DNA of 64,000 nt from Acidimicrobiales bacterium (GTDB lineage: Bacteria; Actinomycetota; Acidimicrobiia; Acidimicrobiales; SZUA-35). Below, piece after piece: positions 1 to 39,677 of the stretch. The position numbers and the translations under genes were made by a program. The stretch is from contig JAHEJM010000004.1 of NCBI GenBank assembly GCA_024638815.1, positions 1 to 64,000 on the forward strand. Direction: 5' to 3'. The notes below the pieces were generated by a model that had not been told where the DNA came from, did no database searches, and saw only the letters and a program-made list of their open reading frames with translations. Each line of letters starts with the position of its first letter. Within the stretch, counting starts at the first letter, position 1.

Positions 1-149
1 GTCAGGCAACGTTCGGGGTGTCGACGGCGAGTCAGGAGTGTCGCTGGCAAGGACGCAGGAGCCCCGCTCACTCGTGAGCGTGAGAGGGGCGACGAGGACG
101 CCGTCCAGCGGCGGTCCTGGCCGCCGGAACGTCGCAAAGGTTGCCTGAC
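1..149. other. Putative structured element (RNA or MITE-like) with 10-nt complementary ends
   Basis: GTCAGGCAAC at 1-10 is the exact reverse complement of GTTGCCTGAC at 140-149; GTTC 11-14 / GAAC 127-130 extend it; internal hairpins CGCTCA-CTCG-TGAGCG (65-80, within GCCCC..GGGGC 61-90) and CGGCGG-N6-CCGCCG (109-126). No ORF explains it. Left end may extend outside the window. Confidence 0.35.
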
Positions 150-195
150 GCGGTACTAGAGACGTTCGTCTTCCGGTCCCGCCGTCGACCGGGTG

Positions 196-17636: not shown

Positions 17637-19072
17637 GTAACGAAATGACCGAAGCCCTTCAGGCGTTGGCCGAGGATCGGGGGATCTCGATCGACAAGTT
17701 GTTCGGCATCATGGCCAACGCGCTGGAGTCGGCCTATAAGCGCATGCCCGATTCCTTTGAATACGCCTGGGTCACCATCGATCCTGCCTCCTTCGACATC
17801 CGCGTCTACGCCCAGGATCTCGACGAAGACGGTGAGCCGTACGGCCCCGAGCTCGACGTGACCCCCGAATCATTCGGACGAATCGCGGCCCAGACCACGA
17901 AGCAGATCCTCACCCAGGGCATTCGTGAGGTCGAACGGGAGATGAAGTACGAGGAGTATGCCGGCCGGGAGGGTGACATCGTCACTGGCATTGTGCAACA
18001 GACCGATTCCCGCTACACCCTGCTCGATCTGGGCCGGGTCGAGGCCCTGCTACCCCAGGCCGAGCAGGTGTCGATGGGCCGCAGCGAAGGGGGCAACCGG
18101 GTCAAGGCCTACATCGTCGAGGTCCGACGCACGGCCAAGGGTCCTCAGATTGTGGTGTCCCGAACCCACCCCGGGTTGATCAAGCGACTGTTCGAGCTCG
18201 AGGTGCCGGAGATTGCCGACGGCATCGTGGAGATCAGGGCCTGCGCCCGCGAACCCGGACACCGGACCAAGATCGCCGTGTGGTCGAACGATCAAAATGT
18301 CGATCCCGTCGGTGCCTGCGTCGGTGCCCGGGGATCCCGAGTCCGCATGGTGGTCAACGAACTCAACGGGGAGAAGGTCGACATCATCCCCTTCAGCGAG
18401 GATCCCTACGACTTCGTGGCCAAAGCCCTGTCGCCGGCCAAGGTCAAGGATGTCCGCATCGATTTCGACACCGCCACGGCAGAAGTCATCGTCCCCGACT
18501 TCCAGCTCTCGCTTGCCATCGGCAAGGAGGGCCAGAACGCCCGGTTGGCCCATCGCCTGACCGGCTGGCGCATCGATATCAAGAGCGAGACCCAGCTCGA
18601 GGAGGAAGCGGCCTACGCCGGCGAGGAATGGGCCGAGGGCGAGTGGATTGTCGATGAGAAAACCGGTGAGCAGGTATGGCAACCGGCCGAGGGTGGACCG
18701 GTGATCTCCGCCGATGAGTGGACGGCCTCCCAGGAGGGCGAGGCGGTCGCCGATACCGATGCTGCAGAAGCCGGTGCTGAAGATGCCGAGTCGGGGGATG
18801 ATCCCTCGGTCGATGAGGCCGGCTCCGATGAGGTCGGCGTTGCTGAGGCCGGCTCCGATGAGGTCGGCGTTGCTGAGGCCGGCTCCGATGAGGTCGCCGT
18901 TGCTGAGGCCGGCTCCGATGAGGTCGGCGTTGCTGAGGCCGGCTCCGATGAGGTCGGCGTTGCTGAGGCCGGCTCCGATGAGGTCGCCGTCGATGTCGGT
19001 GTTGCCGAGGAGGCGGCGGAGGTTGCCGATGAGACCGACGATTCCGACAACCAGGCCGACGAGGAGGACTAG
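17633..19072 (+). CDS. nusA: Transcription termination/antitermination protein NusA with acidic repeat tail
   Basis: S1/[85 protein letters not shown]. Confidence 0.96.
18815..18994 (+). repeat. In-frame tandem repeat, 6 x 30 bp (= 2 x 90 bp) in nusA
   Basis: GAGGCCGGCTCCGATGAGGTCGGCGTTGCT repeated six times; variant order GG, GG, GC, GG, GG, GC gives a 90-bp higher-order unit. Confidence 0.95.
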
Positions 19073-32367: not shown

Positions 32368-32991
32368 ATGGAGCAATCCCGGAACGTATCCGCCGTTCTG
32401 CTCTGCCTCCGACTGAAAGGCTTCGCCGACACCGACGTCCTGGCCGAGGCCAGCGGACAGTCGATCGGCGTGGTGGAAGAGGTGCTGAGGTCGGCGGAGA
32501 ACGACGGCTGGGCCGATGCCCGTTCGGGCTCCCGTTCGGGCTGGACCTTGACCGCCGTCGGCCGATCCGGCCTCGAGCAGCGCCTGGCCGATGAACTCGC
32601 CGCCTCCGGGAATCGGAACCAGGTGGAGGACGGCTACGAGCGGTTCCTTGAGCTGAATCAACCGTTGTTGGCCGTCTGCACCGGTTGGCAGGTGAAACAG
32701 GCGGAGCCTGTCGTGCTCAACGATCACTCCGATCCCGAGTACGACCGTCAGGTCGTGGACGATCTGCGGCTGCTCCACGGCCGGGCAGAGCCCGTCTGTG
32801 ACCGGCTGACCGCTGCCCTATCCCGGTTCTCCGGCTATCGGCCTCGATTGAGCCATGCGCTGGAACGGGTTGTGGCCGGCGAAACCGAGTGGTTCACCAA
32901 ACCCACGATCGATTCCTACCACACGGTCTGGTTCGAACTTCACGAGGACTTGCTCGTTACCCTGGGACGTGACCGGACTTCCGAGCACTAG
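32368..32991 (+). CDS. Conserved hypothetical protein, possible wHTH N-terminus
   Basis: LLCLRLKGFADTDVLAEASGQSIGVVEEVLRSAENDGWADARSG.SGWTLTAVGRSGLEQRLADEL reads as a winged-helix followed by a helical domain. Confidence 0.55.
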   Translation: MEQSRNVSAVLLCLRLKGFADTDVLAEASGQSIGVVEEVLRSAENDGWADARSGSRSGWTLTAVGRSGLEQRLADELAASGNRNQVEDGYERFLELNQPLLAVCTGWQVKQAEPVVLNDHSDPEYDRQVVDDLRLLHGRAEPVCDRLTAALSRFSGYRPRLSHALERVVAGETEWFTKPTIDSYHTVWFELHEDLLVTLGRDRTSEH

Positions 32992-33035
32992 TGTTCGCCG
33001 ACGGAGCGCCTCACGGCAACTCTCCGAGTTGCTTC

Positions 33036-33106
33036 GAGTTTGGCCTCCGGCCAAACCTCGCCGAAACTTGACCTAATCGTGAACATCCAAGCCAACAAGC
33101 GAAACC
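33036..33106 (+). repeat. Intergenic hairpin repeat, copy A
   Basis: GAGTTTGGCCTCCGGCCAAACCTCGCCGAAACTTGACCTAATCGTGAACATCCAAGCCAACAAGCGAAAC; stem GTTTGGCC/GGCCAAAC. Confidence 0.9.
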
Positions 33107-33156
33107 AGCCTCGAAGACCGGAGAAAGATCCAACGAAGGCCCGGATGCGGCGGGAC

Positions 33157-33260
33157 GGCGCTCCTGCCGCCGGCCGAGGACGGGCTTGAGTTTGGCTGTC
33201 GGCCAAACGTCGCCGAGATCTGACCCATTCGTGAACATCCAATCGAACAAGCGAAACTGA
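33157..33260 (+). repeat. Intergenic hairpin repeat, copy B (extended)
   Basis: CTCCTGCCGCCGGCCGAGGACGGGCTTGAGTTTGGCTGTCGGCCAAACGTCGCCGAGATCTGACCCATTCGTGAACATCCAATCGAACAAGCGAAACTGA. Confidence 0.9.
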
Positions 33261-33275: not shown

Positions 33276-34166
33276 ATGGCCCGCTTCGGTACCGTCCTAA
33301 CCGCAATGGTGACCCCGTTCGACGGCAACGACAAGCTCGATCTTGTCGCCGCCCAGAAGCTGGCCCGATATCTCGTCGACAACGGAAACGACGGTGTGGT
33401 CGTGGCCGGTACCACCGGGGAGTCGGCAACCATCAGCTATGAGGAACAGCGGGACCTGATCGGAGCAGTGCGGGAGGCCCTGCCCGATCATGTGTTGGTG
33501 GCCGGTGCCGGGAGTAACGACACGGCCAACGCCGTCAAGAACACCAGGGCGGCAACCGAGGCCGGGGCCGACGGCATTCTGGCCGTGACTCCGTATTACA
33601 ACCGGCCGTCCCAGGCCGGAATCGAGGCCCACTTCCGGGCTTCGGCGGCCGAGACCGATCGTCCTGTGATTCTGTATGACATCCCGGTTCGCACCGGCCG
33701 CAAGATCGAGATGGCAACCCTTGTTCGGCTGGCCGAGGTCGACAACATCGTCGCCGTCAAGGACGCAGCCGGTGACGTGGCTTCCACCGCCGCCCTGCTG
33801 GCCGAGGTCGGCGATGGTCTCGAGGTCTACTCGGGCGAGGACAAGCTGACCCTGCCGTTGATCTCGGTCGGTGCGGTCGGAGTCATCGGCGTTGCCACTC
33901 ACTGGGTCGGTCGGGAGATGTCCGACATGTTCGCCGCCTATGCCGACGGTCGGGTCGACGAAGCCCGGGCCATCAATGCCCGCCTCATCCCGTCTTATGA
34001 CTACGAGGCCTACGACGACGCCCCCAACCCGGTACCGTCGAAGGTGATGATGAACCTTCTCGCGGTGTCCGTCGGCCGGTGTCGTCCGCCCATGGGTCCC
34101 ATTCCCGATGATCTCGAGGACCGGGCCCGAGCCGTGCTGTCGGGCCTGGGGCGGTCGATCTCCTGA
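33276..34166 (+). CDS. dapA: 4-hydroxy-tetrahydrodipicolinate synthase
   Basis: GTVLTAMVTPFDGNDKLD; GTTGESATISYEEQ; VTPYYNRPSQAGIEAHF; LYDIPVRTG; AVKDAAGD. Confidence 0.96.
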   Translation: MARFGTVLTAMVTPFDGNDKLDLVAAQKLARYLVDNGNDGVVVAGTTGESATISYEEQRDLIGAVREALPDHVLVAGAGSNDTANAVKNTRAATEAGADGILAVTPYYNRPSQAGIEAHFRASAAETDRPVILYDIPVRTGRKIEMATLVRLAEVDNIVAVKDAAGDVASTAALLAEVGDGLEVYSGEDKLTLPLISVGAVGVIGVATHWVGREMSDMFAAYADGRVDEARAINARLIPSYDYEAYDDAPNPVPSKVMMNLLAVSVGRCRPPMGPIPDDLEDRARAVLSGLGRSIS

Positions 34167-35857
34167 TGGCGTCGCCGGTCAAGATCAGCTTTCTCGGCGG
34201 ACTGGGCGAGATCGGCCGCAACTGCGCCGCCGTCGAGGTCGAGAACCGCATCATGCTCATCGATTGCGGTCTGATGTTCCCCGATGCCGACGCCGCCGGG
34301 GTCGATCTGGTTCTGCCCGACTTCACTTTTCTCCGGGAGAACGCCGATCGGGTCGAGGGTGTGGTCGCCACCCACGGCCATGAGGACCATATCGGAGCGC
34401 TCGGATTCCTGTTGGAGGAGATGCCGCTCAAGATCATCGGCTCGCCGTTGACGGTCGGCATGGCCAAGAGTCGTATCAGCGAGCGGGGTGTGGTCGATCG
34501 GGCCACCTTCATCGAGGTCAGCGACAACGACCGAATCAACGTCGGTCCCTTCGATCTCGAGTTCTTTCCCGTGACCCACTCGGTTCCCCACGGTTTCGCC
34601 ACCGCCTTCCACACCCCGCAGGGCGTGGTGCTCCACAGCGGCGATTTCAAGCTCGACATGATGCCGGTGGACAAGCGGTTGACCGATTTGGCCGGTCTCG
34701 GTCACCTGGCCAAGGACGACGGCGTTCGCCTGTTCCTGGCCGATTCCACCAACGCCGAGGAGCCCGGCTTCTCCGAGTCGGAGACCTCGATCGGCCAGTC
34801 CATCCAGGACTTGTTCCGGGCCCGTGAGGGGCGCCGGATCATCATCGCCTGCTTTGCCAGTCACATTCACCGGGTTCAGCAGATTGCCGATGCCGCCATC
34901 GCCACCGGCCGGACCGTGGCCACCTTGGGTCGATCCATGAACTCCAACGTGGCTCTGGCCCGCCGGATGGGCCTGCTCCACATTCCCGATTCCAAGCTCC
35001 GCGACATCGAGGACGTCGACGGCATCCCCGACGAGCAGCTGTGTGTGATCTCCACCGGTTCCCAGGGTGAGCCCCTGTCGGCTCTGGCCCGGATGGCCAC
35101 CGGCGACAATCGCTGGCTCACCATCCGGGAGGGTGACTGCGTGATCCTGTCGTCCCACCCCATTCCCGGCAACGAGTCCAGCGTCTCCCAGGTCATCGAC
35201 GGCCTGATTCGGCGAGGGGCCGAGGTGGTGCATTCCGGTGCGGCCCGGGTCCACGCCACGGGCCACGCCAAGGCAGAGGAACTGCGGGTCATGCACTCCA
35301 TCGTGCAGCCGGAGTGGTTCATCCCGGTCCACGGCGAGTATCGCCATATGGCCGAGCACGCCCGCATCGCCGTGGGCATGGGCCATCGCGCCGACCGGGT
35401 GATGGTTTGTTCCGACGGTGACTCGGTGCTACTGACCGACAAGGGACTGGAGCGGACCGAGGGAGTGCCCTCCGACTACGTCTACATGGCGGGAACGGTT
35501 GGTGCTCTCGACCACAGTGTGCTTTCCGAGCGCCAGATACTGGGTCGGGAAGGGTTCGTGTCGGCCGTTGTGGCCCTGTCCATCGTGGGGGCCCGGGCCG
35601 AGTTGCTCCGGGAACCCGAGGTCTTGAGTCGAGGCTGGGTCCACGGCGACGAGGGCGACATGCTGCGCAAGGAGGCCACCCTGGCCGTACGCCAGGCGGT
35701 GGAGGATGCCATCAAGGACGGCAAGCGAACCCGTCAGGACTTCGAGCGGGTGACCCGGCGAGCCCTCGGTCGCTTCATCAACAAGCGGACTCGACTGCGA
35801 CCCATGGTTGTTCCTGTTGTCCTCGGGGCCCACGAGGGCGAGGACGAGGACGGCTAA
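34166..35857 (+). CDS. rnj: Ribonuclease J
   Basis: THGHEDHIGAL; HSVPHGFATAFHTPQG; LFLADSTNAEEPGFSESE; CFASHIHRVQQI; VHGEYRHMAEHARIA. Confidence 0.95.
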   Translation: MASPVKISFLGGLGEIGRNCAAVEVENRIMLIDCGLMFPDADAAGVDLVLPDFTFLRENADRVEGVVATHGHEDHIGALGFLLEEMPLKIIGSPLTVGMAKSRISERGVVDRATFIEVSDNDRINVGPFDLEFFPVTHSVPHGFATAFHTPQGVVLHSGDFKLDMMPVDKRLTDLAGLGHLAKDDGVRLFLADSTNAEEPGFSESETSIGQSIQDLFRAREGRRIIIACFASHIHRVQQIADAAIATGRTVATLGRSMNSNVALARRMGLLHIPDSKLRDIEDVDGIPDEQLCVISTGSQGEPLSALARMATGDNRWLTIREGDCVILSSHPIPGNESSVSQVIDGLIRRGAEVVHSGAARVHATGHAKAEELRVMHSIVQPEWFIPVHGEYRHMAEHARIAVGMGHRADRVMVCSDGDSVLLTDKGLERTEGVPSDYVYMAGTVGALDHSVLSERQILGREGFVSAVVALSIVGARAELLREPEVLSRGWVHGDEGDMLRKEATLAVRQAVEDAIKDGKRTRQDFERVTRRALGRFINKRTRLRPMVVPVVLGAHEGEDEDG

Positions 35858-35876
35858 CCTCCCCCCACTGCGCTTC

Positions 35877-35914
35877 GGCGGGCCGGCGACCCCCTTCGCC
35901 GGGGTTGGCCCGCC
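35877..35914 (+). terminator. Hairpin downstream of rnj
   Basis: Outer GGCGGGCC (35877-35884)/GGCCCGCC (35907-35914), inner CCCC (35891-35894)/GGGG (35901-35904); no U-tract. Confidence 0.5.
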
Positions 35915-35916
35915 GG

Positions 35917-36020
35917 CACGGTGCTCCTGCCGCCGGCCGAAGACGGCTTGAGTTTGGCCTCCGGCCAAACGTCGCCGAAACGTGACTCAATCGTGAACAT
36001 CCAAGCCACCAAGCGAGACT
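35917..36020 (+). repeat. Intergenic hairpin repeat, copy C (extended)
   Basis: GTGCTCCTGCCGCCGGCCGAAGACGGCTTGAGTTTGGCCTCCGGCCAAACGTCGCCGAAACGTGACTCAATCGTGAACATCCAAGCCACCAAGCGAGACT. Confidence 0.9.
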
Positions 36021-36101
36021 AGGAGGCTGGTGGATCGGGCGTAGAGAAAACCGGGGGGTTCCCTCCATTAACCCACTGGTGCGGCTACTGTTACAACCAC
36101 T

Positions 36102-39100
36102 GTGGCAACATCAACTCGGAACTCATCACGTTCCGGTCGAGGGGCTACGGGCGGACGCAAACCGGCACGCAGGAAGAACGCAAAGCGTCGCGCCCAAGAA
36201 GACCGCAGGGATCTCCAGGGGCTGCTGCTCATAGCCTTTGGTGTCTTGCTGGGTCTCGGCCTCTACACCGGCGCGACCGGCGTGCTCGGCCAATGGCTGG
36301 CTCAGGCCACCGGGGTCCTTTTCGGCCTCGCTCGCTTCCTCGGCCCCCCGCTCCTGCTGGCCGCCGGGTTTCAGATGCTGCGGACCAGTTCCCGCCGCCG
36401 TCGCCGCAAACCGGACTACGGCCAGTGGTTGGCGTGGGGATCTCTGGTGGCCGCCGGATTCTGCCTACTCGACATGCTCGGTGGGCGTCCCTACTGGACG
36501 TCCCCGGTTGAGGACCTGAGCCGGGCCGGTGGTTGGGTCGGTGTCGCCATCGGCGGCACCCTCGAGCGCTATCTGGGTTACTGGGGCGAGGTGGTGGTCA
36601 CCATCACCCTGGTCATGATCGCCGCCGTGTTGCTCACGTCCATCTCGTTGGGCCCGGCGGCCGACACCATGGCCGAGCGGTTCGGCTTGATCATGGCTCG
36701 GCTTCGAGAGCGGTTCTCCGATCGTGATTGGCTCAAAAGGGAGGAGTCCGATCCGGTCGGCGATCTTCGCCGGGACCGGCCCCGTGGCCTGGCCGCCATG
36801 TTCGAGGACGACCCCATCGACGGCGCCGGGCACACACCGAGCAGGTCGGGCGACGAGCACGAGGCCCAAATCTACATCGATCTGCGCCACGATCACCCCG
36901 GCGGAGAATCGCCGGACGACGGTTCGAAGCCTCGACGTGGCTCCGACGACGCTGCGGACGCCGACGACGACATCGTGGTGGTGGGTCGGGACCCCGAGTC
37001 CGGCCCGGTTCAGGCCGATGTGGGCCGACGGTGGCAGGACGCCGGTCCCAGTCCGGTCATCGAAGTGCCGTCGCCGCCGGTGGTCGAGGGCCTCGCCATG
37101 GCCGCCCCCCAACCCCCAGACGGGTATTGGCGGCTTCCCACCCTCGACATTCTGGACCGGACCGAGGCCCAGGACGTGGACCGGGCCTCGGTGGAGAAGA
37201 CCGGTCGGCAGCTCGAGCACGCCCTGGCCGAACACGGTGTCGAGACCAGGCTCATCGGCGTGGTCGTCGGCCCCACCGTCAGCCGATTCGAGTTGGAGCT
37301 CGGCCCCGGGGTCAAGGTGTCCAGGGTGACCTCGCTTCACAAGGACATCGCCTACGCCATGGCCACCCCCGACGTTCGCATCCTGGCCCCCATCCCGGGC
37401 AAGCAGGCCATCGGGGTCGAGGTGCCCAACGTCCGACGTCAGATCATCACCGTCGGCGACCTACTGATTTCCGAAGAGGCGGCCAACGCCACCCATCCGC
37501 TCGAGGTCACCCTCGGTCGGGACATCACCGGCCGAACCATCGTGGCCAACCTGGCCGGCATGCCCCATCTGCTGGTTGCGGGCCAGACCGGCTCCGGCAA
37601 GTCGAGCTGCATCAACTCGATGCTCACCTCCATCCTCATGCGGTCCACGCCGGATCAGATCCGTCTCATCCTGGTCGACCCCAAACGGGTCGAACTCACC
37701 CAGTACGAACGACTGCCCCATCTGTTGACCGAGGTGGTGACCGACCCCAAGAAGGCGGCCAACGCCCTGGCCTGGGCGGTCAGGGAGATGGAACGACGCT
37801 ACGACCTGCTGAGCGAGGTCGGGGTTCGTGATCTGGACGGCTACAACCGTTCGGTCGACGAGGGCCGGTTCGATCCCGTTCCCGGGCCCGACGGGGAACC
37901 GATGGAGTACCAGCGGCTCAGCTACATCCTGGTTGTGCTCGACGAGTTGGCCGACCTGATGATGGTGGCGGCCCGCGATGTCGAGGAATCGATCTGCCGG
38001 ATCGCCCAGAAGGCCCGGGCCGTCGGCATCCACCTGGTGATCGCCACCCAGCGTCCGTCGACCAATGTCATCACCGGCCTGATCAAGGCCAACGTACCGG
38101 CCCGACTGGCCTTCGCCGTCTCCAGCCTGACCGACAGTCGGGTCATTCTCGACCAGCCCGGAGCCGAACGCCTCGTCGGCCGGGGTGATGGCCTGCTCAA
38201 CGACGGCACCACCAGCACTCCGGTCCGGTTCCAGGGGGCCTGGGTCACCGAAGCGGAAGTGGCGGCCATCGTCGACCACTGGACCAACCAGGCTCCCGAG
38301 GTCACCTTTGACAGTCGGGTGGTGGGGGTGGAGGCCGGCGGTGAGGCCGCTGCCTTCATTCCCGGTGGCTCGACCGGCGACGAGGGAGACGACGATCTGC
38401 TGTTGCAGGCCATGGAACTGGTTGTGCGATCCCAGCTCGGCTCGACGTCCATGCTGCAACGCAAGCTCCGGGTCGGCTTCGCCCGAGCCGGCAGGCTCAT
38501 GGACTTGCTGGAGGAGAGGGGGGTGGTCGGTCCATCCGTGGGCTCCAAGGCGCGCGAGGTGCTGATGACCCCTGAGGACCTCGACGCCGGTCGGTGGCCC
38601 GTTGGGGTTGCCCCCCCGGCGGTCGACAGCCAGCCGCCGGCCAAACCGGTGTTCAGCTCGCCGGCCTTGCCCACCCGACAGGATCGGCCCCGGCCCGGCC
38701 GGCTCGATGACAGGGTCGACACCACCGACGATCGACCTGAGGGCGTCGCCGACGGACCATCGCGAGGCCGTTCCGGCGCCATGGCCGACGACACCGTGGT
38801 CGATGACGCAGTGGTCGATGACGCTGTGGTCGATGACGCCGGTTTCGACGATACCGCGGCCGACGATGCCGGGTTCCCCAACGCTGCCGGTTCCGACAAG
38901 CCCGATCGGGATAGGGGCGCCGGGCCCGCCGACATCACCGATGGCGGCGTCTCGACCGACGAGGGCCCATGGCCCGACGACGGTCCCGACCCGGGACGAC
39001 GGGCCGACGGTCCGTCGGCCTCGTATCGTGATCAACCCGTGGTCGACGCGCCCCGGAGGCGGCGATTCACCCTGGCCGACATCCCCAACCCCGAGCCGGT

Positions 39101-39677
39101 CCGGATCCCCGAGAGTCGGGCCGCCCATCCCACCACCGGGGGACAACGAGCCGAATCGGCACCCCGACCGGGCCTCGACCCTTATCTGGGGCCCGACCCC
39201 CACCTGGGGATCGACAAGACGCCGACCGCCAGGGTCAACGCCGGCACCGCCTCGGCCGTGGCCCGAGCCGACACGCCGGTGCTTGAGGAGCCGAATGAAC
39301 CCGAGTCTCCGGGCAAGCCTCACCTCCGGGTGGTCCAGGATCCCGATCCCGAACTCTACGAGCCGGAGCCCGAACCGTTCGACTTCGACGCCGAGGCCGA
39401 CATCGAGGGCCACTTCGAGGCCGAGACCGACGACCACCATGACGCCGACGCAAACGTCGAGGACCGCGTCGAGCGCAATGTCGATGAGCACCATGCAGGC
39501 GAGGTGTTCGACCCCGACGACGAGTTCGACGACGATGGCCGAACCTTGGTGGCCGCCGATGACTGGTCCGACGAGTTTGATGCCGACGATGACCTCGACG
39601 ACGAGTTCGACGGCGACTTCGACTCGGCCCTGGCTCCGCCGCCCGGCTACCCGCGGGCAGATCGGCGTGAACCGTAG
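36102..39677 (+). CDS. ftsK: FtsK/SpoIIIE DNA translocase with long acidic C-terminal tail
   Basis: N-terminal TMs; [68 protein letters not shown]; gamma-like [33 protein letters not shown], then about 370 aa tail. Confidence 0.94.
   Translation: [1191 protein letters not shown]
38796..38840 (+). repeat. 15-bp in-frame tandem repeat x3 in ftsK tail
   Basis: GTGGTCGATGACGC(A/T/C) x3, encoding VVDDA. Confidence 0.85.

Follow-up and report, generated by a model that had tools for sequence, protein, structure and literature searches.

Copy C, the repeat upstream of ftsK in the window (the whole 64,000-nucleotide stretch of DNA that was analysed), is probably a member of a non-autonomous, MITE-like family of dispersed repeats in an acidimicrobial lineage, with an enzyme supplied in trans and insertion at TA within CTAG in the style of IS630, and with a palindrome resembling those of REPs. 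It is explicable without any regulatory function; a role as the regulatory leader of ftsK is not supported, and a leader role is unproven for the other copies. No earlier description of this 114-nt family was found in the literature searched, but the kind of element is known.

The initial annotation had described three copies of one repeat within 3 kb in a consistent orientation, the third about 80 bp before ftsK and carrying the same 5′ module as the second. These copies are real. Their cores are 81-90% identical, and a 29-nt core pattern has exactly three matches in the window (copies A, B and C) against none in 100 shuffles. The 5′ module common to copies B and C extends over 36 nt with 89% identity, and the ftsK start, a GTG at 36102 in a gene with Pfam FtsK domains, lies about 80 bp 3′ of copy C. 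The extent of the unit had to be revised, as it is longer than described and spans one CTAG-type site to the next. The features are as follows.

32368-32991, + strand: gene 5′ of copy A, syntenic with dapA in relatives
32991-33105, + strand: copy A, with a type-2 5′ module
33145-33257, + strand: copy B, a type-1 long unit, 18 nt 5′ of the dapA ATG
33276-34166, + strand: dapA (dihydrodipicolinate synthase family; Pfam PF00701)
34166-35857, + strand: RNase J gene (Pfam PF22505/PF17770)
35876-35915, + strand: strong GC-rich hairpin 3′ of the RNase J gene, read from the sequence
about 35914-36019, + strand: copy C, a type-1 long unit with a diverged 5′ end and a right end reading AGAC followed by TA-G
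35950-35974, + strand: core palindrome of copy C, GAGTTT-GGCC-TCC-GGCC-AAACGTCG
36020-36021: TA that bounds copy C on the right, within CTAG 36019-36022
36086-36091, + strand: -10-like box TANNNT, conserved in syntenic relatives
36102-39677, + strand: ftsK (Pfam PF01580 and others), start matched in relatives

The left CTAG of copy A (32988-32991) is the source of the TAG stop of the preceding gene, and the first 13 or so nucleotides of copy C are diverged and overlap the hairpin at 35876-35915. Elsewhere in the window, a 15-nt periodic tandem repeat at 18767-19036 comprises 12 overlapping copies in register.

The source genome (G000) is a 4.7-Mb assembly of 227 contigs, 90.8% complete, and belongs to Acidimicrobiia judging by its relatives. 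BLAST places the repeat at 51 positions in it, the core pattern has 88 matches against none in a reversed control, and a covariance model built from 73 copies finds 110 matches. Units are about 98-115 nt long (114 nt in the profile, about 98 in short variants), begin with a G and end with a C of their own, and consist of a modular 5′ half with one of several hairpin types, a central palindrome and a conserved 3′ tail. The 5′ half is type 1 long in copies B and C, type 1 short where it forms a GGCGAG-loop-CTCGCC hairpin, and type 2, with an extra GCAACTC-loop-GAGTTGC hairpin, in copy A. Further variants are a type 3 and a subfamily with the tail GTTGAATGATC. The palindrome GAGTTT..AAACRTCG occurs in most copies and is altered in type 3 and the GTTGAATGATC subfamily, and the main types have a common tail ending in ..GCGAAAC. 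In-frame stops in 22 of the 73 copies and equal variation at the three codon positions speak against a hidden small protein.

Intact copies are flanked by TA on both sides. Among about 80 copies, 44 have CTA^G at the left junction and 46 have C^TAG at the right one (^ marks the element boundary). Copies in TTAG, GTAG, CTAC, CTAT and CTAA contexts retain G and C as the element ends, indicating that the dinucleotide common to both junctions is TA and not CTAG. The junctions conform to a duplication of TA, and the congeners are too diverged to provide a pair of empty and filled sites at the nucleotide level. CTAG constitutes 7.5% of intergenic TA sites and 1.2% of genic ones, yet the large majority of insertion contexts, and is thus a strongly preferred target. 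Some copies form head-to-tail arrays in which adjacent units have a single common junction; the private mutations common to array members suggest growth by local duplication. At two loci (L105 and L067) the left and right junctions provide the stop codons of convergent genes.

Gene calls were made with a simple codon-model gene finder and copies were grouped into 75 clusters. Almost all of these are intergenic, and a hand count gave about 27 that directly abut a stop codon, at one side or the other. The codirectional clusters comprise about 26 sense and 14 antisense to the genes (p = 0.08), with some 20 further clusters between divergent genes and some 10 between convergent ones. The consistent orientation noted initially therefore holds for the three window copies and not for the genome as a whole, and the "leader" pattern seen there arises from the small sample, since both orientations occur genome-wide. 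The lean toward sense would allow for a weak regulatory signal. CTAG sites outside the elements are stop codons in 22% of cases and intergenic in 61%, so that target choice together with the loss of genic insertions largely explains the positions of the copies. A short window gives the pattern a regulatory look, but it arises from target choice, CTAG being scarce in genes and present at TAG stops.

These counts bear on the proposal that the repeat is a cis-regulatory leader RNA, with hairpins that work from within the 5′ UTR of whichever gene follows (ftsK, dapA, polA and others). The co-orientation of the window copies with the next gene and the sense lean would fit such a role, as would a copy that ends 12 nt before a gene with a polA-like start and, in some congeners, core palindromes situated just 5′ of start codons, including an rplF-like one. 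The antisense clusters and those between convergent genes argue against it, and so do the weak or absent fold z-scores of copies B and C (folding of single copies is moderate, with DNA z -1.3 to -3.0). An Rfam scan of the window matched no family, and covariation is absent within the 114-nt family, where the one pair changed on both sides equals the level of shuffles. The absence of covariation is expected for the recent spread of one form.

Comparison with relatives weakens the leader proposal further. The upstream gene, dapA, the RNase J gene and ftsK keep this order in relatives, and the repeat is absent from the congeners, in which dapA is preceded by 0-165 bp and ftsK mostly by 45-156 bp, and which control the same genes without it. 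In many family members, including the source genome (window 36068-36102), a TANNNT box at 16-11 nt from the GTG of ftsK is conserved, along with ACT-GTG. This -10-like box stands between copy C and ftsK, so that the ftsK mRNA probably does not include copy C; judged from sequence, that mRNA would be almost leaderless, with copy C 5′ of its promoter. Copies A and B may be transcribed in place, since many relatives have little or nothing between the two genes that they separate. Altogether a leader function is very unlikely, and this half of the initial interpretation is not supported.

The other half, a dispersed REP- or MITE-like element, is supported by the 110 copies, the CTAG/TA boundaries, the empty syntenic loci and a patchy distribution. 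When 39 genomes of the family were searched with the model, eight had matches, with 110 in G000, 42 in G023 and 0-7 in the other 37. The seven matches in G002 lie mostly on contigs 97-99% identical to G000, a sign, perhaps, of contamination or of a close strain. What had looked like a 100-bp insertion distinguishing these two genomes turned out to be a run of N. A scan of the genome collection for the tail recovered, beyond the genome of origin, only the MAG 21_Jan_SF_Bin50. The repeat family offers markers for strain typing.

The unit is probably moved by a trans-acting enzyme with IS630-like target choice. Such an enzyme would insert the unit at TA within CTAG, as IS630/Tc1-mariner transposases do, and every insertion would restore CTAG at both ends, turning the repeat into its own target. 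Tandem arrays could then enlarge by unequal exchange. Genes contain few CTAG sites, whereas such sites are common in intergenic DNA and at TAG stops, so that surviving copies would be found at gene ends and hence often 5′ of the next gene. An IS630-type DDE transposase (DDE_3, PF13358) has no matches in the 90.8% complete assembly. No autonomous relative was recognised either: the matches to a left-end pattern are nearly all at known copies, with a few at degenerate ones.

Two other modes of movement have to be weighed against IS630-style insertion. In the first, the repeat is a REP family whose copies were distributed by an HUH enzyme, either a RAYT (Y1) or another, that works on single-stranded DNA hairpins and inserts 3′ of CTAG. 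Subterminal hairpins, asymmetric ends, the lack of a clear terminal inverted repeat (TIR) and an embedded palindrome with a covarying stem would suit this enzyme class, and GTAG REP termini are known to supply TAG stops (PMC3733652). A cognate RAYT-type transposase, suggested at the outset, was searched for in the genome and not found, as Y1_Tnp (PF01797) gave no matches there and was positive in control genomes. The units also lack a GTAG tag and are longer than REPs of 20-40 bp, and the left NTAG and right CTAN contexts fit a TA junction better. Spread by a RAYT or other HUH enzyme is unlikely. In the second mode, a serine- or circle-type recombinase would insert a circular unit at TA, the TA being a crossover dinucleotide and not a duplication. 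The asymmetric ends and the head-to-tail arrays with one common junction are consistent with this, and the junction of the circle would itself read C-TA-G, but the near-identity inside arrays points to slippage or unequal exchange. A circular intermediate is quite improbable.

Several known systems resemble the repeat in part. The IS630/Tc1-mariner elements and their MITEs resemble the acidimicrobial repeat in having TA at both junctions, a preference for TA in CTAG and small non-coding multicopy derivatives. The preference of IS630 for TA within CTAG is stated in the title of Tenzen & Ohtsubo 1991, as cited in PMC2170065, and ISY100 duplicates TA (PMC2170065). In contrast to these elements, the acidimicrobial repeat has no significant TIR when left and right ends are compared with shuffles (p 0.05-0.94, the best value, 0.05, for one 5′ type), and no DDE_3 transposase was found in the assembly. 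MITEPsy1 of Pseudomonas syringae is a 100-nt non-autonomous element that inserts at CTAG or YTAA (PMC3189936). It differs by its 18-nt TIRs and 4-nt duplication, where the acidimicrobial repeat has a common TA and TIRs are not evident.

BOX-type repeats are modular and intergenic, and the acidimicrobial repeat resembles them in modular composition and intergenic location, but differs in its CTAG/TA junctions. Like the GTAG- and CGTC-tagged REPs (PMC3733652), it is a high-copy intergenic palindrome that often adjoins stop codons, with A/T pairs at the base of the stem and a CGTC contained in its 3′ AAACGTCG. It differs from REPs in its unit of about 114 nt compared with 20-40, its fixed 5′ module and 3′ tail, its CTAG junctions, its head-to-tail arrays in place of head-to-head dimers and the lack of both GTAG and RAYT. 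A CGTC-tagged REP has an unpaired CGTC at one end, a stem of 8-9 bp whose first two pairs are A-T, and a CCA tail; the acidimicrobial palindrome has the A/T pairs and CGTC or CATC, a 3-nt loop and no CCA tail, and its tag can partly pair. The CGTC REPs are likewise without a known transposase (PMC3733652), and the two share the question of what moves palindromic repeats in genomes lacking a recognisable transposase. A limited literature search found no paper dedicated to REPs in Acidimicrobiia; REP counts for one acidimicrobial genome appear in a 2025 survey (PMC12306157).

Two other kinds of element occur next to copies of the repeat. Three HNH endonuclease units (L069 2574-3843, L053 767-2505 and L112 869-2300), one of them with a disrupted gene, abut repeat copies at CTAG and have inverted ends ATGATTGGTTCCAAGRGGTTGG. 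They were rejected as the autonomous form, having inverted ends of their own and one end that is not at CTAG. A second repeat of the source genome, about 185-205 nt long, is a classical TIR MITE with near-perfect TIRs of about 20 nt (TAGTRCCGCGTCAGGCAAC) and is bounded by CTAG. It is found at window positions 1-159 (a contig-end copy that opens the window), at L092 746-929 and at L045 690-892, where it directly adjoins a subfamily copy of the 114-nt element. That the same genome contains such a MITE with CTAG ends counts in favour of the MITE-like reading. The left end of the 114-nt element, GTRC-G-GCG, is similar to the end of this second repeat, GTRC-C-GCG, a similarity that is a lead and not a test.

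The core palindrome extends beyond the element. With the inner part left free, GAGTTTN{9,12}AAACRTCG has 107 matches in G000, 27 in G007 and 20 in G003, and controls gave 0-1 per strand and genome. Across 48 distinct inner sequences, pairing between the three bases at one end and the three at the other holds in 90% of cells, compared with 59% in shuffles (sd 3.3%), indicating that the fold-back is maintained while the sequence changes. Palindromes outside the element often lie 3′ of another hairpin; they are also found in tandem arrays, 3′ of tRNA genes and in the vicinity of HNH genes. The GAGTTT-stem-loop-stem-AAACRTCG structure might be a clade-wide fold-back signal of an uncharacterised mobilisation or DNA-processing system, with the 114-nt element as a TIR-less derivative inserted at TA in CTAG by a recombinase of neither RAYT nor IS630 type, a reading that is doubtful at present.

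Between rpsH-like and rplF-like genes, the core palindrome occupies the same place in two species (L152 in G003 and L161 in G007), preceded by differing hairpins and close to the ribosome-binding site; a regulatory use at this site is possible. Tandem arrays of a two-hairpin unit with the core GAGTTT-stem-AAACRTCG are found at eight loci (L222, L224, L230, L232, L238, L242, L245 and L246). The stems of this unit covary between arrays, and three of the arrays lie directly behind the genes for tRNA-Tyr, tRNA-Leu and tRNA-Arg.
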